Below, piece by piece: positions 17,002 through 30,298 of a DNA stretch of 47,578 nt. The position numbers were made by a program, and so were the translations under genes. Under the pieces are notes generated by a model. The model worked only from the letters and a program-made list of their open reading frames with translations, was not told the origin of the DNA and ran no database searches. The stretch's first letter is position 1, and every line of letters starts with the position of its first letter. The stretch lies in the IMG/VR virus record IMGVR_UViG_3300042868_005712, positions 1 to 47,578 of that record. One strand, 5' to 3'. Source of the DNA: a virus.

Positions 17002-17553
17002 TTATCTAAAGCTAGGACCGTGTAACCATAAAGCAGCACTGTAACGTGTACCTTTAGTTATTGGAGTTGCTCTGTGTTGTAAGTAAGAAGGGAATACGAC
17101 AATAGAACCTTTTTGTAAAGGAACAAAGTCAACACCACTATTTTGTATTTCTAAATGACCACCTTCAAATTCAGAAGGATCATTTAATAAAATTATTGCT
17201 GTTAATTTTCTATCTGTAGGTGTATTTGAAAGAAAGAAAGTATCTATATGCCAATCATAAAAACCTTCTTGTTCATATTTAGCCATTTGAACTTGCTCAG
17301 GCTCTGTAGCTATAAAATTCCAACCAGCTTCTTTGTTTGCATAATTAATATTATTAAGCATAACAGCTTCTAGCCAATGATTCTTTTGTAGCCAAGCGAT
17401 ATTAGTTTTACGAAGGTTATTATTTTGATTCTGACCTTCAATACCAATAGTAGCTTCTTGTTGAACAAGTTGCTCTCTTTCTTTTAACAATAATTCACAT
17501 AGTTCACTTGGAACAGCATTATGTCTAATCCAAAAATGTGGTAAATAACTCAT
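17002..17553 (-). CDS. 2-oxoglutarate/Fe(II) oxygenase, prolyl-hydroxylase-like
   Basis: This enzyme is predicted to couple 2-oxoglutarate decarboxylation to hydroxylation of a protein or small molecule. The iron triad is present: WHID (His and Asp, about residue 100) and LQHRATP (His, about 160). The 2-oxoglutarate-binding Arg follows in TRYSAALWLHG. The segment FEGGHLEI is typical of the prolyl 4-hydroxylase/PKHD branch. At 183 aa it is a catalytic domain only. It is the last gene of the structural operon, next to two fibres with Gly-Pro-Thr repeats, so fibre proline hydroxylation is a reasonable but unproven role. Confidence 0.87.
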   Translation of the reverse strand: MSYLPHFWIRHNAVPSELCELLLKEREQLVQQEATIGIEGQNQNNNLRKTNIAWLQKNHWLEAVMLNNINYANKEAGWNFIATEPEQVQMAKYEQEGFYDWHIDTFFLSNTPTDRKLTAIILLNDPSEFEGGHLEIQNSGVDFVPLQKGSIVVFPSYLQHRATPITKGTRYSAALWLHGPSFR

Positions 17554-17563
17554 ATAATTTCCT

Positions 17564-18580
17564 TTATTTATTTTCTTTTAATTGTCTTAGTTCTTCTTTG
17601 AGAGCTAATACTTCTTCTGTTAATTTAATTACAGCTACTAAAGCAGCGTTACCATAAGCTAATGATAGTGTTCCATTAGAGTCTTCCATAACTGCTTCAG
17701 GAATAATCTTTTGAACATCTTGAGCAGAAGCACCCACTTGACGCTCACCACTATCAATACGAGTATAAGTACCGCATTTAACCTTAGCCAAGTCTTGTAG
17801 AAATGTTGGTGATAATGAAGACCAATCTTTCTTCAATCGTTCATCTGAGTAAGCTGTTACGTTGCTAACAGCTGTAAGATTACCACCAAAGGTTGCATCA
17901 TTATTCTCAAGATTTATTGTAAGGGGCCAGTTTCCGTTAAACGTTGCCCAAGTCAATGAGTTATTTCCATCACCACGTAATACATAAAAAGTACTACTAT
18001 TACAATGAATCATTGAGCTTCTGTTGTCAGAATCTCTTAAATAAATTGTTGGTGAACCGTTATTAATCTCAATATTGTTAGGTGTTACGTTAGGTCCAGC
18101 AGGTCCAGTAGGACCAGTTGCCCCTGTAGGTCCAATAGAACCAGTTGGTCCTGTGGGTCCTGTAGGTCCAGTCGGTCCTGCTACTGTAGATGCTGCCCCT
18201 GTGGGTCCTGTAGGTCCAGTCGGTCCTGGGGCACCAGTTAAACCAGTTGGTCCTGTAGGTCCAGTAGGTCCAGCAACAGTAGAAGCTGCCCCCGTTGGTC
18301 CTGTAGGTCCAGGGGGTCCAGCAACAGTAGAAGCAGCTCCTGTGGGTCCAGGTGCTCCTGTGGGACCTGTAGCCCCTGTTGGTCCTGTAGAACCTTGAGG
18401 TCCTGGGGGTCCAGCAACAGTAGAAGCTGCCCCCGTTGGTCCTGTGGGTCCAGTTAAGCCTTGTATTCCCTGAGGTCCAGTAGGTCCTGTCGGACCGGTT
18501 AAACCAGTAGGTCCTGTGGGACCCGTAGGTCCAGTAGCACCATTTAAAGCACTACTGATTAATGAACTTAAAGTTGTCAT
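17564..18580 (-). CDS. Collagen-like tail fibre with S74 self-cleaving chaperone
   Basis: A short head ([14 protein letters not shown]) leads into a Gly-X-Y rod of about 150 residues, mostly Gly-Pro-Thr. The rod is broken several times by the same four residues STVA (GAA-STVA-GP). A beta-rich tip domain follows (about 175-240). The C-terminus has the Peptidase_S74 intramolecular chaperone signature [10 protein letters not shown] near residue 245, with the catalytic Ser-Asp, and ends in a coiled coil [20 protein letters not shown]. The chaperone would trimerise the fibre and then cut itself off. It is probably a trimeric receptor-binding fibre. Confidence 0.88.
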
Positions 18581-18625
18581 TAGTAAATTCCTTTATTTAT
18601 TATTGTTTAAGTTATTAATCCACTA

Positions 18626-21600
18626 TTAAGGTGTACCAAAACCTGTTACATCATTTGCAGCAATAATTGCTCCAGTAGATGAAATAGAGAATACAGGTGT
18701 ACCGTTATAATTGAATTTTAAAACACTTCCAACTTGAGTAACTGTAAAGTTTGTTGTAACAATACCTTGAGGTCCAGTTGGTCCGGTAGGTCCAGTCGGT
18801 CCTGTTGGTCCTGTCGGACCGGTAGGTCCAGCAACAGTTGAAGCTGCACCAGTAGGTCCTGTCGGACCGGTAGGTCCAGTTAATCCCTGAGGTCCAGTTG
18901 GTCCGGTAGGTCCTGCTGCACCTTTAGCACCAACGTTAGCAATTACTTGCCAAGTAGACCCATCATAGATAACTTGTAATGTGGTTTGTCCTACATCAAC
19001 AACTAGATCTTCAGCTATACCTTCAATTGTTTTCCCATTTCTGGCAATAGTTAAATTATTAGTTGTCCAATTAGCACCGTCTGTAATTACAACAACACTA
19101 CCAAGTACAGGAGAAGCAGGTAAGGTAATTGTAAATGAACCAGCAGAAGTATCAGCAAGATATTGAGCATTAGAAACAGCAGTTGTATTGCCTGTAACTT
19201 TAACCCATGGAGCAGCAGCACCTTGCGGTCCAGTAGGTCCAATAGAGCCTGTTGGTCCTGTGGGTCCTGCAGGTCCAGTTAAACCAGTAGGTCCTGTTAA
19301 ACCTTGTATACCTTGAGGTCCAGTGTCGCCAGTAGCGCCAGTTAATCCTTGTAAACCTTGAGGTCCTGTTGGTCCAGTTAACCCTTGTATACCTTGAGGT
19401 CCTGTTGGTCCAGGTGATCCAGTGGGACCAGGAGCACCATCAGCGCCATCTTGACCATCAGCACCTGTATCACCTTGTGCTGCTACTACGCTCCAATATG
19501 TTACATTTGGTGGGACAACCCCAACAACGGCACCTGAATTAAAGCTGTTTCTACGATAAGTTGTACCAGTAGGTGCACTATCTGGTCCTCGTGTAACAAG
19601 ATCACCCTCTATGTAAGCAATACTACCATTATACGGACCCTTCCAATACCACATAGCATCAGCACCATCAACACCATCAGAGCCATCACTACCAGCAGGA
19701 CCATCAGATCCATCCATGCCTTGTAAACTAGCTAACCACGCTGTTTGACTTCCAACAAAGCCATTACTAACTGCTATCTCATATGCAGAAGCACCATCTA
19801 TACCATCCATGCCATTAGAACCAGCAGGACCATCAGCACCATCAGAACCATCAAGACCAATCTCGCCTTTAGCAGCTATTAAATCCCATATCACTACACC
19901 CAACCACAATGTACCTGGTGTAGTTCCACTCACTGATGGATTATCAAACTCTGGATAAAAATCATTTCTACGCCAAGTATTACCTGCGTAAGTAACAATA
20001 TCACCTGCGATATAAGAAGTACTAGAAGAGAATGCGCCTTTCCAATACCATATAGCATCAGCACCATTAGCACCAGGGGCACCATCCATGCCATTCAGAC
20101 CATTAATACCATCTATGCCATTCAGACCATTAATACCATCTATGCCATTAGCGCCTGCTGCACCGTCTGCTCCAGTTGGACCTGTTGCACCAACTGCGCC
20201 TTGTGCTGCAATTAATGTCCAAAATGTTCCTTCTGAAGGTGTATCACCAACGTTACCACCATTAGAATTAATACGATACCAAGTTTGTCCATCATAAGTT
20301 GCTACATCACCAACTGCGTATGGAGTACCTAAACCATAAGCACCAGTAAAATTCCATAAAGCATCTGTACCATCAATACCATTTAAACCATCAGCGCCAT
20401 TCATACCATCAGCGCCAGCAGGACCGGTTGGACCAACTAAAGCTGCATTAGCTACTGTTGATTTCTTTACTGTATTATCGGTTGCATCAAGAACCAATAC
20501 ATAATCGTTTGCACCATCTACTGTGGTAATTGTAGAATAGTTTTCAATACTATTTAGTTTATTATCTAATGCTGTTTGTAAACCAGTAATAGAACTAATA
20601 GGGTGTTGATCTGATAAAGACTTATCTGTTAAAGCATTATGGCTAGTAGCACTAAAAGATAGTGAGTTAGCTGCTTGAGCAGTTAATCTACGAACACCTG
20701 CAATTTGAACACCTGCCGCATTAGCATATGAACCTGTATGTAAAACAATTTGATACATAGGAACTAATTCAGGTAGAGGTAACCCGTAGTCTTCAAATGA
20801 TTCTGCGTATACATTATCAACGTTATTAGATATATAACGACCCATTACTAATTTAATAGGTTGATTCTTATCATTAGTTGCAATTAACCAATAAGACAGG
20901 TATTTATTATTACCTGCATCTGCTAAAGCACCAGAACCGTTTGTAATAGGATTATATCTAGCATGAGAAGTACCCGGAACCCAAGGGTCTGTAGCGGCTG
21001 TTCTTTCTACATAACCAGTACCGTTTAAATATAATACAGGTAAAGAAGCTATGCCTTCTAAAATTTGATTATAAGAACCATCGGGTGTAGCAGAATGTGT
21101 AATATCATGATTGATATCTTCATCTGCAATATTAACAGGTGCAGCTACAGCAATAGTAACAGTGTCGCTGTTTAGTGTATAACTTAAGGCACCACCCGAT
21201 CTCCAAATAGCACCGATGTCTCTATGTTGTGAATAATGCCACTGTGTATCTCTTTGTACTGAGTGACGTTCATCACCTACAATAATTGCTTTACTATTTG
21301 TTGCATCCCAATAAATATATGCTACTAATAAATCTTCTTTAATACTTGGATTGTCACCTACATCTTCTAGCTGTTCTGTTACAGGATCAAGAGCAATATA
21401 GTGACCACCACTAGAATTTGCAATTTGAATTGTCTTATTAGAACTAATCGCAATTGTTTTACCACGATAGTAGACATTAACTGTACCTGTAGGTGTTAAT
21501 GTAAGTGTTCTTGTTGAATTATTAAAACTAATAGCTGTATCAGTTCTAGACATGAAACCTGTCATATCAGCAGTTAATTCTCCAATGCCCAAATTTACAC

Positions 21601-24021: not shown

Positions 24022-24567
24022 CTAGAAATTTCTAATATATTTATAAGTTGTGATATTAGAACCACCATGACCTTTTAAATTGTCATAACCTAGTTCTAAA
24101 ATATCTTGTTTAGTAAGTCGATAAGAAATAGCGTACCTCATAGTGTTGCTATGATCCTTATCTACATTGTTAAAAGCATCTCTAGCTCTGAAAGATACTT
24201 TTGTTGTAATTGATTCTGTTAATGGGATAGCCACCCCAGCTTCTGCTGTATAATAGTAAATACCTTGTACTCTATCTACTTTCTTTTCACCTACAGATAC
24301 TCTAGCAAATAGCTGTTTATAAGTTGTGCTAAGTCCGGCTTCTGTTCTTAATGTCTTTACATTAGATACTAAACCAATATCATTACCATAACCAAAATCT
24401 GCGAATAAATTATCTGCAATTTTTGTTCTGATACCAATGGTGTTTTGTTTATTTTCTGAATGGTTAGCATCGATAACACGATGACCATAAGAAACCATTA
24501 AAGATGTCTGTGCAAATACAGACGATGTGAATAGTAGAAATGATACTAATAATAATTTAAACGGCAT
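24022..24567 (-). CDS. Exported outer-membrane beta-barrel-like protein
   Basis: The N-terminus MPFKLLLVSFLLFTSSVFAQ is a typical Sec signal peptide with a VFA-Q cleavage site. The mature part alternates polar and hydrophobic residues in strand-like stretches (LMVSYGHRVI, LFADFGYGND, LFARVSVGEK, YYYTAEAGVA, YAISYRLTK). It ends TTYKYIRNF, with the C-terminal aromatic residue expected of outer-membrane barrels. About eight strands fit 180 aa. The ATG at 24567 lies inside the end of the DUF2061-type gene. Phage proteins of this kind (Lom-like) can change the infected-cell surface, for example to block superinfection; that role is inferred. Confidence 0.72.
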   Translation of the reverse strand: MPFKLLLVSFLLFTSSVFAQTSLMVSYGHRVIDANHSENKQNTIGIRTKIADNLFADFGYGNDIGLVSNVKTLRTEAGLSTTYKQLFARVSVGEKKVDRVQGIYYYTAEAGVAIPLTESITTKVSFRARDAFNNVDKDHSNTMRYAISYRLTKQDILELGYDNLKGHGGSNITTYKYIRNF

Positions 24568-24982
24568 ATTTACCCCAACTTGTCTTGTTCCATAAACGTT
24601 CGTGAACATAATGAAAAACTAATAATAAAATATTTAATACAGCAGAATAAACTAAACTATCACCTGCTGATGTTTTTGATAAGAACCATGTTAGGAAAGC
24701 TAAAATCAAGAAAGAGTAAATTCTCCATGATGCTGTTTTAACGATTGATCTCAAAGGTTGCTCATAAGCACCTACCTTTTTAAATTGCAGCCTACCCCAA
24801 ATCACTTCATGAATATAGAATGTAACTGCACCAATAATAGAGATTTTCCAAACCATATTAAAGGCTGTCCAACTGTCTTGACCAAGCATAGTCAAAATTA
24901 AAAAGAACATAATCAAAGAACCACCAACTCTATAAGTTGCTGTTTTTGATAAGGCTCTTGCTTGTGTATCTTTATATTTCAT
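24557..24982 (-). CDS. Tandem DUF2061-type integral membrane protein
   Basis: Two copies of the same module are visible. The first is KTATYRVGGSLIMFFLILT with YIHEVIWGRLQF; the second is KTASWRIYSFLILAFLTW with YVHERLWNKTSW. Each has an R-rich entry, two hydrophobic helices and a HExxW exit, as in the DUF2061 family of small inner-membrane proteins of unknown function. About four helices are expected. ATG at 24982 follows AAGGA at 5 nt. It is tightly packed between the adenylate-forming ligase and the outer-membrane-type protein, overlapping the latter by 11 nt. Confidence 0.78.
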   Translation of the reverse strand: MKYKDTQARALSKTATYRVGGSLIMFFLILTMLGQDSWTAFNMVWKISIIGAVTFYIHEVIWGRLQFKKVGAYEQPLRSIVKTASWRIYSFLILAFLTWFLSKTSAGDSLVYSAVLNILLLVFHYVHERLWNKTSWGKYAV

Positions 24983-24989
24983 AAAATCC

Positions 24990-26288
24990 TTATATATCTG
25001 ATAAACCTCTTTGTGGTTTTCCACTAAAGGTTCTTTTTAAACTATCTACAAATTTAATCTTTTTAGGTATTAAATAGTAGGGTAAATTTTTCTTACAGAA
25101 ATCTCTTAAAGTTTCTTCTGTTGTTTTTTCGTTTTTAACTACAAGTAGTTTTACAAATGTTGCACCCATCTTTTTATATGGTAATGCAAATACATCTTTT
25201 ACAATACCTGATTTACTTATAATATCTTCTATCTCTGAGGGGTGAACTTTTCCATGAAATGTTATAATTAAGTCATCTGCTCTACCGAGATAATAAAGAT
25301 TGTCATCTATCAATTTAGCAAAGTCTCCTGTTACAAATGTTTTAAATGGAGAAGTAATATTTAATTTTCCATTAATAATATCTGCTTTATAACCAGGCAA
25401 TAGTTTACCTAAAGAGTTGTTAGGCGTAATCCCTTCTTTTGATGCTACAAACAAAAATAAAGAATCTGCAGTTCCCATAATATTTGTTAAATATTTATTA
25501 GAGCTATTTTTCCAATTGGCTCGAAGATCTTCATTTAGTATATCCCCACCGGAAACACAATATCTTAACGAATTACAAAGATTAGTAATATTATTTTTAG
25601 AAGCTTCTTTATAGAATAACGGAGAAGAAAAGAACAAAGTAACTTTATATTTATTGATTATTTCTAAGGTTTCTAATACAGATTTCTTACTAAGTAATAA
25701 AGTTGTAGCTCCTGAATAAAGTGAAGTAACTAAACCATAAGCTAAACCTAGACTAAAAGCTAAATTAGCAGTACCATAATAAACATCATTCGCAGTAGCT
25801 TCAAAACAATTAATTCCTGTTTGTGCTGCAAATATAGTAGACTCCTGTGTATGTGAAACTACAGTTGAATATTCTTTTGTAGTTCCAGAAGACAATGTAT
25901 ATAAACAAATATCTTTTTTGTTACAGTCAACAGTATCACAATGGCTCTCAAAATTATTTAACTCAGTTAATAACTGAGAAATATTATTAGAAGAAATAAT
26001 TATCTCAATATCAACCTGTTCTATAAAGTTATTAATTTGATTAAGAGTATGTAATTTAGATACTATAAGAGGTGCGCCACCGAGTTTTATGATAGCTAGC
26101 CATAGAATAGCCAATCCAAGAGTATTATCATCTTGTAATAAAATACTTTTACCTTTATAACCTTTAGATATCAAGTTATTAGCCATTTTATTAACTAGTA
26201 TTTCTAATTCTTTATAGGTTATTTCTTGATTGTCTGTTACTATAGCTATTTTATTTTTATTACTAAATATATTATTTATTATATTCAT
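24990..26288 (-). CDS. AMP-forming acyl/aryl-CoA ligase-like protein (ANL superfamily)
   Basis: The enzyme would activate a carboxylic acid as an acyl-adenylate and pass it to CoA or another acceptor. ANL motifs are in order: LSSGTTKEYSTVVSHT (P-loop, about residue 136, lacking the usual Gly-x-Pro-Lys), GTAD (about 272, Asp for the usual Glu), TGDFAKL (about 321), LGRADDLIITFHGKVHPSEIE (hinge, about 334) and FSGKPQR with the catalytic Lys (about 424). The layout is closest to aryl/benzoate-CoA ligases. At 432 aa it is short. It overlaps the alpha/beta hydrolase gene by 4 nt. Such a gene is unexpected in a phage. Confidence 0.83.
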   Translation of the reverse strand: MNIINNIFSNKNKIAIVTDNQEITYKELEILVNKMANNLISKGYKGKSILLQDDNTLGLAILWLAIIKLGGAPLIVSKLHTLNQINNFIEQVDIEIIISSNNISQLLTELNNFESHCDTVDCNKKDICLYTLSSGTTKEYSTVVSHTQESTIFAAQTGINCFEATANDVYYGTANLAFSLGLAYGLVTSLYSGATTLLLSKKSVLETLEIINKYKVTLFFSSPLFYKEASKNNITNLCNSLRYCVSGGDILNEDLRANWKNSSNKYLTNIMGTADSLFLFVASKEGITPNNSLGKLLPGYKADIINGKLNITSPFKTFVTGDFAKLIDDNLYYLGRADDLIITFHGKVHPSEIEDIISKSGIVKDVFALPYKKMGATFVKLLVVKNEKTTEETLRDFCKKNLPYYLIPKKIKFVDSLKRTFSGKPQRGLSDI

Positions 26289-26968
26289 TTTAATAACTCA
26301 ATCAGTAACTCTGGATTTCGTTTATGCACAGTATGCTTATTACCTGTTATTAAAATTAAATCTAATTGAGGAATTGCTTCTTCCATTAGTCTAGTTTGTA
26401 ATGGAGAAGAATATGGGTCTTTATTATATTTAACAAGAGTAACAGGGCAGGTAATCTGCTTTGCTACATTAAAAATAGATTCATCCTCAAAACTACTAGT
26501 AGTGCACCTTTTGTACCAAGGATAAAACATGCTATCTACATCTTTGTGTGCATTAGATAACTCTGGCATACCACCTGCCTCTAATCGTTCTCTTAATTTA
26601 TTTAAAGAATCTACCATAGACTGATCATACTTAAGATATCCTGCTGTTAGTAATAGTTTCTTCACAGGGTATTTAACAGCATAATGCATCGCTATTACTG
26701 ATCCACAACTATGACCAAAAATAATAGGTTTATTTATATTTAATTTATTTATTAAATCATGTAGTACTTCAACTTCGTTATCAAATGAAAATTCCTCTGT
26801 AGCAGGTGAAGAGTTACCATGACCATATCTAGAGTAAACTAATACGGAATAACCTGTTTCCTTAGATAACTTATCTGGAAAATTTTTCCATAAAGAAACA
26901 CAACCAATACCGTCATGGCTAAGTACAATAGTTTCTTTTCCATTTTTAATATATTCGTATTCTAGCAT
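26285..26968 (-). CDS. Alpha/beta hydrolase
   Basis: This is a predicted esterase, thioesterase or related serine hydrolase. The nucleophile elbow GHSCGS is near residue 88. The acid is probably Asp in YNKDPYS (about 180) and the base His in KHTVHK (about 215), a complete triad. SHDGIGC near the start would form the oxyanion hole, as in MhpC/MenH-like enzymes. ATG at 26968 is preferred; a TTG at 26980 overlaps the previous stop. The 4-nt overlap with the acid ligase gene suggests the two act together, for instance ligase and thioesterase, but the substrate is unknown. Confidence 0.85.
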   Translation of the reverse strand: MLEYEYIKNGKETIVLSHDGIGCVSLWKNFPDKLSKETGYSVLVYSRYGHGNSSPATEEFSFDNEVEVLHDLINKLNINKPIIFGHSCGSVIAMHYAVKYPVKKLLLTAGYLKYDQSMVDSLNKLRERLEAGGMPELSNAHKDVDSMFYPWYKRCTTSSFEDESIFNVAKQITCPVTLVKYNKDPYSSPLQTRLMEEAIPQLDLILITGNKHTVHKRNPELLIELLK

Positions 26969-26973
26969 AATAT

Positions 26974-27723
26974 TTACCAATCAGATGTGTCTATAGTTTC
27001 TGTCTCATATAAATATGTTTCATTACTTATACCTTCTTTTATTACAATAATTTTAGCTCTAATTTCATTAATTAAATTTTCTAATTCAGTATTATAATTT
27101 TCATTAATTTCTAATAAAGGTTGTTCATTGTATTCTACCATATAACCATATGGTCTAGTTCCGTGCCTAAAAACAAAGTTAAAAATTTCAGGATATTTAC
27201 TATAAACACTATTGTATTTTTCAGGTAATTCTTCACTTAAGTAAGTTTCGGATAATGGTAAGTCCGTAGCAATATCATATTTAATAGCTATTACTTTAGA
27301 ATTTTCTTGTACTAATTTATAGTAATATACCAGTTCTTTTGTTTGTAAATTATATGTAAAAGAATAGCGTTCATGCCCAAAAGGATATTTTTGATATACT
27401 TCATTAACAACACCATTACTAACTTTTATTAAGTTATGATTAGTACCATTGTCAAAAAAGAAACACCTAGCAATAATACTTTCAGATTCTAATTCAAAAT
27501 TTGTATGTTCTAAATTTGAAATACACTTAAATCCAAAAAAGTTTTCATAAAATAATTCTGCAATTTCTTTATCAGAATCCCATGGTTGATTGCTACTTGC
27601 TTTATATTCTTTTGGTTTTGTAGTTTCTGTTAGATACTTATCAAAAATATTTTTATATATTGTTTTTGCTTCTTCAATTGTTTCACAATCGATGTAACCG
27701 TCTTTACTAAGGCATTTATACAT
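26974..27723 (-). CDS. Unknown protein of the accessory cassette (249 aa)
   Basis: This is not recognised. The protein is rich in Asn, Glu, Lys, Tyr and Ile and very AT-rich at the DNA level. Its N-terminus MYKCLSKDGYIDCETIEEAK has a strand-turn and an EEAxxIYKxxFDKYL helix that parallels the 85-aa protein encoded upstream. The middle is beta-rich (ESIIARCFFFDNG, YSFTYNLQTKELVYYYKL) and the end acidic. GGAG lies just before ATG 27723, inside the end of the cupin gene. It might be an adaptor or enzyme of the same pathway; no catalytic motif is evident. Confidence 0.65.
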   Translation of the reverse strand: MYKCLSKDGYIDCETIEEAKTIYKNIFDKYLTETTKPKEYKASSNQPWDSDKEIAELFYENFFGFKCISNLEHTNFELESESIIARCFFFDNGTNHNLIKVSNGVVNEVYQKYPFGHERYSFTYNLQTKELVYYYKLVQENSKVIAIKYDIATDLPLSETYLSEELPEKYNSVYSKYPEIFNFVFRHGTRPYGYMVEYNEQPLLEINENYNTELENLINEIRAKIIVIKEGISNETYLYETETIDTSDW

Positions 27724-28294
27724 CTCCACTCTCCAATAATTTTTGTAAATAATCTTTAGGTTTTGTGATATCTGCATAACCCTCTAAAACTAAAGCATTA
27801 GGATTAAATCTTTTAATTAAAGCTTCATGTTTTGGACCAACCGTTTTACCCTTCCAAGCCGAAGAGATTGTACTTGGTTCTTTATCTTTCCAGTGTTGTA
27901 CTGCAAAAAGTGGAAAACCTTTAATTGCGGCTTCCATTACCATACCTTCTCCATGTGCCTGCCCATCTTTTAAAGGAGAAGCGGCAGTTATCCAATTATC
28001 TTGTATTTCTATTAAACCTGAAGAGTCTTGTACACTCTCTGTCATTCTCATTTTAATAACTTCAACCCCTGGGTGTTCATGTATAGGAACTTTTGGGGTA
28101 GGATGAATTAAATACAATTCAACTTGAAATTGACCACTTCTAAATAAACAGATAGAAGTAGCATCATCTGTACAAAAAACTTCAGCATTAACTGGTATAA
28201 ATAATGGTAGTTTATTTTCTACATACCAATCAGCAAAATCTTGTACATTATTCCATTGTTTAGTTTCTATACTAGGTGAATTATAAATTTTCAT
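27716..28294 (-). CDS. Cupin-fold protein (192 aa)
   Basis: A cupin-like beta barrel is suggested by VELYLIHPTPKVPIHEHPG followed by EVIKMRM. The HxH...E set near residue 70 is a probable metal site, and GQAHGEGMV may give a later ligand. The N-terminal MKIYNSPSIETKQWNNVQDF and C-terminal helix KDYLQKLLESGDV flank the barrel. It may bind a metal and a small molecule or sugar, or act as an oxygenase or isomerase. It overlaps its neighbours by 8 to 14 nt in a tightly coupled accessory unit. The cupin call is by motif only. Confidence 0.65.
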   Translation of the reverse strand: MKIYNSPSIETKQWNNVQDFADWYVENKLPLFIPVNAEVFCTDDATSICLFRSGQFQVELYLIHPTPKVPIHEHPGVEVIKMRMTESVQDSSGLIEIQDNWITAASPLKDGQAHGEGMVMEAAIKGFPLFAVQHWKDKEPSTISSAWKGKTVGPKHEALIKRFNPNALVLEGYADITKPKDYLQKLLESGDV

Positions 28295-28538
28295 TATTTA
28301 ATTTCTCTTTTAATTTTTCAATATAATGTTTTGGTAACTCTGTACCATAATCTTCCTTAGTAGTCCATTTTTCCCAACCATTTTCATCAATCTCTACCTT
28401 AGCATAAAAACATTTACCTATATAATTCATATACATCTCAAAAGCTTGTTTTGCATGAATTTCTTGTGCCTCTTCTAAATTATCAACATAAGTAAATTGT
28501 CCATTTCTAGGATCTAATATTGCTATTTTTGTTATCAT
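28281..28538 (-). CDS. Small unknown protein of the accessory cassette (85 aa)
   Basis: This begins at an ATGA overlap with the adhesin gene stop. The protein is MITKIAILDPRNGQFTYVDN, then an EEAQEIHAKQAFEMYMNYIG helix, a strand CFYAKVEIDENGWEKW and a charged C-terminal helix. The DP.NG turn followed by LEEA helix resembles the N-terminus of the 249-aa protein two genes on, so the two may share a domain. It has no acyl-carrier Ser motif, so it is not an obvious carrier protein for the ligase. The function is unknown. Confidence 0.65.
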   Translation of the reverse strand: MITKIAILDPRNGQFTYVDNLEEAQEIHAKQAFEMYMNYIGKCFYAKVEIDENGWEKWTTKEDYGTELPKHYIEKLKEKLNNENL

Positions 28539-29653
28539 CCTATACCACCATATCTTGTACCAGTTGCACTCCAAGTAACGGAATAACCGTTTGTTCTAAC
28601 ACAGTAACCACCTGCACCACCACTATGTAATGTATATGTAACAGGATAAATAGGAGTTCCATTTCTTCCTCCGAGGGCTGTTCCACCTGCAGCTCCCCAA
28701 CCACCCCCACCTGCTGGTTGATAATTATCAGCATTAGCAGCAATTGTTATAGTTGCACTTCCAGAAGAACCCCCACCTCCACCTATACTACTACTACCAG
28801 AACTAAAACATTGTGCTGTTCCACCAGCTTGACCACCTAAAGCAGGATTAGTAGGCGCTGTTCCATTTGTTAGAAGAGCCGCTTGAGTAATTGAACTTCC
28901 TGGCATAATACGACCACCTCCACCACCGCCAGTATAGTAATAGTTTGTTCCACTAACACCATAACTACCATTGGCACCTGCACCACCAAGACCACCACCT
29001 GCACCACCAACACCAACTGGGTTTGGAGTGGCAACAAAAGTAAATGAATTTCCACCAACACCACCACCTGCGCCACCACCACCAGGATATACTCCCCCGT
29101 ACGTATAGCTACCTGTTAAGAGAATTACACCACCACCTCCACCACCTCCACCGCCAATATAACTATTATTCTGTATAGTACAAGCAACACCTAATGCAAT
29201 AGCATCAGTACCAGCAGTGGGTAAGTCTCCTGCACTAGAACCTGTTGCATGAGTACCCTTACCACCCCTACCCATAATGTAACCATTATTAACTAAGGTT
29301 ACACCATTAGGAAATGAGCCATTAATGGTTAAAGCAGTTCCACCAGTAGAATAGATATAAATACCGCTAGCTATAGTAGCTACTACAGCAGATGATTGAT
29401 TCCACCCTGCATTTACTGCAAGAGTTCTTAAGTTAGCTTGGTCTTGATGGGATGAAATAGTAAAACTAAAAGTAGGGCTACTAAGTCTTTTACTATAAAA
29501 TTCATTCATAGCAAGAGCACCTGCAGAGAAAGTACCTGAACCACCAGCATCAGTATACCATACTGTTCCACGATAACTATTTAAATTATTACCTCTACCA
29601 AATTCAGCATTAATCTGGTTAATGGCAATAGCACCAGAAGCTTGTAATGTCAT
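28535..29653 (-). CDS. Glycine-rich tail adhesin-like protein
   Basis: The N-terminus MTLQASGAIAINQINAEFGR is a common attachment segment of phage distal tail proteins. The region after residue 160 is extremely glycine-rich, with long runs such as SYIGGGGGGGGGVILL and PGGGGAGGGVGG separated by short polar loops. This pattern is like the polyglycine-II sandwich of T4-type gp38 adhesins, where glycine helices hold variable receptor-binding loops. It therefore probably recognises a host surface receptor. It ends in the overlap with the first cassette gene. Confidence 0.75.
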   Translation of the reverse strand: MTLQASGAIAINQINAEFGRGNNLNSYRGTVWYTDAGGSGTFSAGALAMNEFYSKRLSSPTFSFTISSHQDQANLRTLAVNAGWNQSSAVVATIASGIYIYSTGGTALTINGSFPNGVTLVNNGYIMGRGGKGTHATGSSAGDLPTAGTDAIALGVACTIQNNSYIGGGGGGGGGVILLTGSYTYGGVYPGGGGAGGGVGGNSFTFVATPNPVGVGGAGGGLGGAGANGSYGVSGTNYYYTGGGGGGRIMPGSSITQAALLTNGTAPTNPALGGQAGGTAQCFSSGSSSIGGGGGSSGSATITIAANADNYQPAGGGGWGAAGGTALGGRNGTPIYPVTYTLHSGGAGGYCVRTNGYSVTWSATGTRYGGIG

Positions 29654-29668
29654 ATTGCCTCCTGATTA

Positions 29669-30298
29669 TTAGTTTAATTTAAATGGTTGAAATTGAGATT
29701 GTATTGCTGCAACGGGTAATTGAATTGTCCAATTTGCTCTTGGGTTATAACTATTAATTTCTTCTACTGTTGTAATTGCTTGGATAGCCGCTTTATGTTG
29801 CCATAATACTTTATAATTATTAGTTTTTCTTGTAGCAAGAGCTAAAGCTAAACCATTAATAAAAGCAGCATTAGCTGGTTGGTCTACGTTAGCTCTGTCT
29901 CTCCAAGTAAATCCCTCTGGAAGAGTAGCACCAACTGCTAACTGTGTTTGCCATAATAATAAATTAGCTTGTGCAGTTTCATCAGCATTGTAGGTATTAC
30001 CTTGATACTCGATATCAGCTACATCATTGACTTGACTAAAAGAACTTACAAGTATTAACAAGTCTCGTTTCTTTCTTTCGATGTCAGGCGACCATTGACC
30101 TGTTGTTTTATTAAAAACATAATCAAAAGAAGGTGATACAACAAACTCACCTGACTCAGAACGACCAACTGGTAGTCCTGGTACTTCAATTTCTTCTGGG
30201 ATTTCAACCCAAGGTTCAGGCATCACTGAGCCTACGAGATCGTTTATAGATTGGATCATTAAACCATTCTCGTTAAACATTCCATATTTCTTTGTCAT
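29669..30298 (-). CDS. DUF4376-type tail protein (209 aa)
   Basis: The N-terminus (MTKKYGMFNENGLMIQSIND) and Pro/Glu-rich part (PEPWVEIPEEIEVPGLPVGR) look like a tail-associated or fibre-assembly domain. The C-terminal half matches the DUF4376 outline: DIERKKRDLLILVSSF, then ADIEYQGNTYNADETAQ, LPEGFTWRD, and a final helix around VLWQHKAAIQAI. This domain is found in phage tail-fibre assembly or tail proteins of unknown mechanism. It precedes the glycine-rich adhesin gene, so it may help assemble it. Confidence 0.72.
   Translation of the reverse strand: MTKKYGMFNENGLMIQSINDLVGSVMPEPWVEIPEEIEVPGLPVGRSESGEFVVSPSFDYVFNKTTGQWSPDIERKKRDLLILVSSFSQVNDVADIEYQGNTYNADETAQANLLLWQTQLAVGATLPEGFTWRDRANVDQPANAAFINGLALALATRKTNNYKVLWQHKAAIQAITTVEEINSYNPRANWTIQLPVAAIQSQFQPFKLN

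Follow-up and report, generated by a model that had tools for sequence, protein, structure and literature searches.

We examined a packed group of minus-strand genes at positions 24990 to 28538 of IMG/VR virus record IMGVR_UViG_3300042868_005712, the whole of which (47,578 bases) served as the window of our analysis. The original prediction, made by a model from the letters alone, had described five overlapping genes for nonstructural proteins inside the tail-fiber region: an 85-residue protein (u85), a cupin, a 249-residue protein, an alpha/beta hydrolase, and a ligase of the ANL superfamily. All five open reading frames are present on the minus strand and tightly packed, and the ligase and hydrolase score well above Pfam cutoffs. 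Our results reveal that u85 and the cupin belong with the glycine-rich adhesin gene before them, in a conserved core whose downstream genes change from phage to phage. From the adhesin onward, in the direction of reading, the unit consists of the following:

28535 to 29653, minus strand: glycine-rich GP38-like tail adhesin, the anchor of the module (PF05268, phrog_2056, relatives upstream of u85 elsewhere)
28281 to 28538, minus strand: u85, an 85-residue companion protein (homologs in 13 other viral loci, structural model, purifying selection)
27716 to 28294, minus strand: phage cupin with a three-histidine metal site (40 viral loci, predicted fold, cupin tree)
26974 to 27723, minus strand: 249-residue orphan protein (no family match)
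26285 to 26968 from an ATG start, or to 26980 from a TTG start, minus strand: alpha/beta hydrolase (Abhydrolase profiles)
24990 to 26288, minus strand: ANL-superfamily ligase of 432 residues (AMP-binding and C-terminal domain profiles)
24557 to 24982, minus strand: membrane protein with two DUF2061 repeats (PF09834)
24022 to 24567, minus strand: signal-peptide protein, likely an outer-membrane beta-barrel, at the end of the unit (sequence character)

The adhesin matches the GP38 profile PF05268 (9.3e-8; 32.6 bits against a cutoff of 25) and phrog_2056, a family annotated as tail fiber and host specificity, and its sequence is rich in glycine. Homologs of u85 lie directly before a cupin in 13 viral loci besides the window, giving 14 u85 loci, and the cupin is the next gene in 13 of the 13 others. 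Where complete, the gene upstream of u85 is nearly always a glycine-rich adhesin (L032 is one exception); in L021 and L023 the contig end cuts this gene. Even the gene junctions are retained: adhesin and u85 overlap by 4 nucleotides in the window, counting u85 from its ATG at 28538, and in nine relatives, and u85 and the cupin overlap by 14 nucleotides in the window and seven relatives. These arrangements sit in different phage backbones, with podovirus-like tail genes in L015, a siphovirus in the window, and a prophage in L052. The core gene order, adhesin included, is kept in the podovirus-like and siphovirus backgrounds, and the adhesin-cupin pairing in the prophage. The adhesin, u85, and the cupin are thus a conserved overlapping core, and because the backbones of its carriers differ, it seems to be a module passed between phages. 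In relatives, omega values of 0.03 to 0.3 for u85, the cupins, and the 2-oxoglutarate (2OG) oxygenase and methyltransferase genes found in their company indicate purifying selection.

The genes that follow the cupin differ between phages and constitute an exchangeable slot. In nine of the other u85 loci the slot holds a class I methyltransferase; in L019, L023, L024, L025, and L027 a second cupin is followed by a 2OG oxygenase, and L015 has an iron-sulfur protein between these two. Furthermore, L022 carries ThyX, and L021 a glycosyltransferase after its methyltransferase. The orphan, hydrolase, and ligase are slot content in the window only, among the 14 u85 loci. Searches with working controls of 35 other cupin-bearing viral records, which are often fragments, returned neither an AMP-binding (ANL) domain (0 of 35) nor Abhydrolase_6 (0 of 35). 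The five genes had been proposed to form one cassette and pathway, with their joint occurrence in other genomes set beforehand as the test. That pathway is not upheld, because ligase and hydrolase do not co-occur with the cupin in those records, and u85 and the cupin recur in 13 loci without either; what does recur is the adhesin-u85-cupin core with its variable slot. The slot methyltransferase has its closest matches in BioC and in trans-aconitate and fatty-acid O-methyltransferases, all of them weak and under every cutoff; with the neighbors of the cupin, they point faintly toward carboxylate or acyl chemistry.

Such variety is also what a permissive insertion point between fiber genes could produce. 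Under this explanation the slot would collect auxiliary metabolic genes (metabolic morons), and the ligase and hydrolase would modulate lipid or aromatic-acid metabolism of the host during infection. Slot contents do vary widely and include the plainly metabolic ThyX, and in the T4-like viral contig L082 an ANL ligase is found in the company of replication genes, at a distance from any fibers. In addition, desaturases of phages have been interpreted as genes of lipid metabolism (PMC7678222). Yet in most slots the enzymes come from a small set that recurs beside the same cupin, also where no adhesin is nearby, which exceeds what a random dump would yield. We consider this explanation possible, if rather doubtful.

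Scans with the cupin found 40 viral loci and one bacterial genome, where it lies in a Quisquiliibacterium prophage behind a collagen-like fiber and a GP38-like adhesin; it had no match in 398 other Burkholderiales genomes, and the family is nearly virus-specific. Three histidines in a metal-ligand arrangement, an HxH pair and a later histidine (H72, H74, and H114), are kept in 57 of 57 copies, and a glutamate in 41 of the 57. Its AlphaFold2 (AF2) model (predicted local distance difference test score [pLDDT], 91.8) has the double-stranded beta-helix fold of cupins, and its Foldseek matches are cupins with probabilities up to 1.0 (best Z, 7.4 over 88 residues at 2.2 Å), so the fold bears out the name first given to it although the sequence scores below every Pfam cutoff. 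Thiol dioxygenases (CDO, PCO/ADO, and ergothioneine dioxygenase) and phosphomannose isomerase-type cupins share this fold and a histidine-rich metal site, but at 8 to 16% identity and Z scores of 6 to 7.4 no specific family is supported. The PCO/ADO profile (PF07847) gave 15.9 bits against a cutoff of 27, and the structural matches are too general to single out a specific fold relative. In the cupin tree, the window's copy is the first branch of the clade with u85 (support, 93/84).

The company kept by the cupin extends beyond adhesins. No adhesin lies near the cupin pair of three larger phages (L029, L030, and L033), which is accompanied by 2OG oxygenases, a protein resembling short-chain dehydrogenases/reductases (SDR), and the same methyltransferase cluster; the combination of cupin, second cupin, 2OG oxygenase, and methyltransferase is found again in the adhesin loci L019, L023, and L024. 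Desaturase genes are near the cupin in L014, L004, and L016, and a P450 in L014 and L030; these contigs also contain further P450, radical S-adenosylmethionine (SAM), and 2OG genes. The cupin is therefore linked to enzymes and not solely to the adhesin. These neighbors and the affinities of the methyltransferase therefore favor a tailoring pathway over a purely structural role, with the same hint of carboxylate or acyl chemistry.

Large viral contigs (L014:2800-10500, L016, L026, and L028 to L033) cluster cupins, small proteins of 95 to 110 residues, and P450, desaturase, radical SAM, SDR-like, and PP-loop-like genes, which we read as an uncharacterized viral biosynthetic locus. In L026 (5866 to 6723) and L028, a protein that by eye looks similar to a TctC-like periplasmic solute-binding receptor is encoded near PP-loop-like and cupin genes. 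Separately, in fiber loci that lack u85 (L035 to L050) a second cupin of 118 to 130 residues (cup130), with a Cupin_2 score just under the cutoff, precedes the main cupin, often after a fiber-assembly-like gene.

For u85 the clues come from position. It sits behind the adhesin, where other phages have a tail-fiber chaperone (TFA), and because of this placement we regard it as a candidate chaperone or assembly partner of the adhesin. Its AF2 model (pLDDT, 82.9) had no convincing match in the PDB, where no solved structure matches most of the model. Comparison with the small proteins that precede cupins in large phages gave no support for kinship, and alignment with the orphan by hhalign returned a probability of 2%.

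This placement would also suit a role confined to the fiber, in which u85 and the cupin assemble or modify the glycine-rich adhesin, and the slot enzymes hydroxylate, methylate, or acylate its side chains so as to tune binding. Methyltransferases and 2OG oxygenases can act on proteins, and the overlaps of u85 and the cupin behind the adhesin are conserved; ANL ligases, on the other hand, are rarely protein-directed. Moreover, the same cupin clusters with 2OG oxygenases, methyltransferases, P450, and desaturases in phages without a nearby adhesin. A precedent does exist in phage Pam3, whose gp24 and gp25 illustrate that glycine-rich GP38-like fibers can require a dedicated chaperone encoded next door (PMC9608196). 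On balance, we think it unlikely that maturation of the fiber accounts for the locus.

The three slot genes of the window are unequal in what can be said of them. The orphan has no match in Pfam, PHROG, NCBIfam, phages, or viral contigs; it would comprise 267 residues if begun at an upstream ATG (27777), while the ATG at 27723 has a good GGAG ribosome site. The hydrolase matches Abhydrolase_1 (PF00561; 2.5e-16, 60.5 bits, cutoff of 25.8), Abhydrolase_6 (PF12697; 8.3e-12, 46.7 bits, cutoff of 26.3), and alpha/beta hydrolases in the PDB (down to 2.8e-11). A GHSCGS nucleophile elbow and candidate aspartate and histidine residues can be read from its sequence. The suggestion that it might be a thioesterase finds no support, with 16.4 bits for PF00975 against a cutoff of 26.4. 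On the strength of two domain profiles (AMP-binding, PF00501, 9.8e-34, 117 bits, cutoff of 29.9; C-terminal domain, PF13193, 1e-8, 36.4 bits, cutoff of 24.5), the ligase is classed as a compact, divergent member of the ANL superfamily. It keeps a lysine (Lys424) aligned with the invariant catalytic one, as well as GRxDD and TGD, with the loop before TGD partly lost. Its P-loop reads SSGTTKEYSTV against a consensus of TSGTTGxPKG, so that SGTT is kept and the next glycine and lysine are replaced. Activity of this ligase is plausible.

The ligase falls under all equivalog cutoffs (126 bits against 1000 for HbdA, and 116 against 375 for the benzoate-CoA ligase family). In a search for a bacterial origin, the best cellular match, in 398 Pseudomonadota genomes searched at 1e-12 with few candidates scored per genome, has about 30% identity and 83 bits; a threshold of 1e-30, which was too strict, gave no match in Pseudomonadota genomes. 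Neither the ligase nor the orphan, used as a single-sequence query, had a match in viral contigs. Candidates for the ligase from the phage collection were discarded, as most were unverified or bacterial-looking (for example, L012, beside an acyl-CoA dehydrogenase and MoeB). Viral contigs L082 to L088 do match the ligase at about 35% identity, in the C-terminal domain only, and the 484-residue ligase of T4-like L082 (8897 to 10351), near sliding-clamp, clamp-loader, and Hsp20-like genes, is a separate occurrence of ANL enzymes in phages. These ligases, HbdA, and benzoate-CoA ligase share with the window's enzyme the superfamily, the catalytic lysine, and the GRxDD hinge, whereas the window's enzyme is shorter and altered in its P-loop.

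An ANL ligase among tailoring enzymes is a common layout of small biosynthetic clusters, which raises the prospect that cupin, ligase, and hydrolase yield a diffusible product such as a signal, a siderophore-like compound, or a toxin. Large phages in which P450, radical SAM, and PP-loop-like genes accompany the cupin would be in keeping with this. However, we recognized no carrier protein, condensing enzyme, signal synthase, or exporter, and the ligase passes no functional equivalog cutoff, so this appears to be quite improbable. A defense system was likewise dismissed, since PADLOC models matched none of seven proteins at an E value of 0.01.

Overlaps of 4 to 14 nucleotides had been claimed for the five genes, and four junctions of the unit fall in this range: adhesin and u85 (4), u85 and cupin (14), cupin and orphan (8), and hydrolase and ligase (4). 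The orphan and hydrolase are instead separated by a 5-nucleotide gap if the latter starts at its ATG, or overlap by 7 nucleotides from the TTG. As to borders, the five genes are packed as described, but the unit is larger, since it runs past the ligase into the DUF2061 and barrel-like genes and its first two genes belong with the adhesin. The DUF2061 gene (PF09834, 2e-7, two repeats) begins 7 nucleotides past the ligase stop, with AAGGA preceding its ATG at 24982, and the barrel-like gene overlaps it by 11 nucleotides. The DUF2061 protein was found neither in deposited phages nor in the 35 other cupin-bearing viral records. The barrel-like protein has no relatives among deposited phages and has them in 2 of those 35 records, L026 (12085 to 12636; L026/G014) and that of L049 (L049/G034). 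From its sequence it is likely an outer-membrane beta-barrel with a signal peptide.

The stretch was said to be AT-rich, and composition agrees: its guanine-plus-cytosine (GC) content is 28.4% against 34.7% for the whole record, and every other nonoverlapping stretch of equal length has at least 31.8%. We nevertheless reject recent import, because u85 and the cupin have a lower GC content than their own locus in all 14 u85 loci and codon usage of the window's genes is ordinary. Low GC is a property of the module and no sign of recent import. Elsewhere in the record, GC climbs to 44 to 48% over the distal fiber genes (17500 to 20500), well above the remainder, which suggests a different history for the distal fiber ends. 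Adjoining a distal fiber gene, a 2OG-Fe(II) oxygenase (17002 to 17553; phrog_61) with relatives in L037 and L039 is an additional enzyme within the host-recognition region.

Taken together, we tentatively prefer, at somewhat less than even confidence, to read the locus as a host-recognition module with an exchangeable enzyme slot that alters the host surface or the fiber. In this scheme, u85 would assist the adhesin, and the cupin would be a metal enzyme, probably binding iron through its three histidines, that modifies a small molecule, a lipid, or a polymer alongside whichever enzymes occupy the slot. The ligase would use ATP to activate a carboxylic acid as an acyl- or aryl-AMP and transfer it to coenzyme A or straight onto an amine or hydroxyl group, and the hydrolase would trim or edit the product. 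The result would be a change to the infected-cell surface that bears the adhesin's receptor, or to the fiber itself; acylation of either, as first suggested, is possible. A likely benefit would be to keep progeny and competing phages from binding cells already infected, or their debris. An envelope target fits because membrane and outer-membrane proteins close the unit. Several observations weigh against this interpretation. No carrier protein or acyltransferase was recognized. The altered P-loop means that ligase activity is not assured. Ligase and hydrolase occupy the slot in a single genome, so one example carries the case for linking them with one another and with the cupin. Finally, u85 has no match in Pfam, PHROG, or NCBIfam and no likeness in sequence or fold to known chaperones, and the window has a separate fiber-assembly-like gene (29669 to 30298). 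A bolder version, to which we give little credence, is a mobile receptor-recognition module that carries, besides the adhesin, the cupin as its metal enzyme and swappable enzymes that chemically change the adhesin's own target. Every phage would then bring along a way of changing the lock suited to its key, the window's variant being ATP-driven carboxylate activation.

Whatever its chemistry, the locus connects a receptor-binding adhesin with a metalloenzyme family that is nearly virus-specific, and it does so in aquatic phages unrelated to one another that retain the gene overlaps. It provides a comparative frame and names for genes so far unannotated, namely, u85, the phage cupin, and the slot methyltransferase. 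If the enzymes do change receptor or fiber, gene order could be used to predict which key is paired with which chemistry for changing the lock, and phage control over readsorption and superinfection could be tested directly.

By gene content, the window can be described as a Kolga-like siphovirus. Pelagibacter siphophage Kolga EXVC016S (MT375529), the nearest isolated relative found by whole gene content, matches the polymerase (37%), ribonucleotide reductase (50%), and neck and capsid genes (30 to 56%), yet no relatives of the adhesin, u85, cupin, ligase, or hydrolase were seen in it. Viral contigs L006 to L008 are closer than Kolga in replication genes (polymerase, about 53%), and the tape measure protein, as a single-sequence query, had no matches in viral contigs. 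Pelagimyophages have hypervariable host recognition clusters, in which tail fibers occur with glycosyltransferases and other enzymes, and for which surface change and avoidance of coinfection have been proposed; in pelagimyophages and cyanomyophages these clusters are islands of 34 to 45 kb between VrlC and gp14 of T4-like myophages (PMC7029224). The window shares their defining mixture, with variable enzyme genes within the tail-fiber region, but lies outside any such VrlC-gp14 interval: in this Kolga-like siphovirus a slot of 3.5 to 5 kb, containing an ANL ligase and a hydrolase, comes after a single adhesin-u85-cupin core. Cyanophage Pam3 encodes its glycine-rich fiber gp24 adjacent to the chaperone gp25, a 162-residue TFA homolog (PMC9608196). 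Both Pam3 and the window have a glycine-rich, GP38-like (PF05268) receptor-binding fiber with a small partner gene directly after it, whereas no relation between u85 and TFA could be detected, and the gene after u85 encodes a cupin. In the literature that was searched, no published phage system with this gene set was found, in agreement with the original prediction. Enzymes within host-recognition clusters are already known; what is new is a compact core of adhesin, u85, and cupin followed by a slot whose genes can be swapped and which, in the window, holds an adenylating ligase and a hydrolase.

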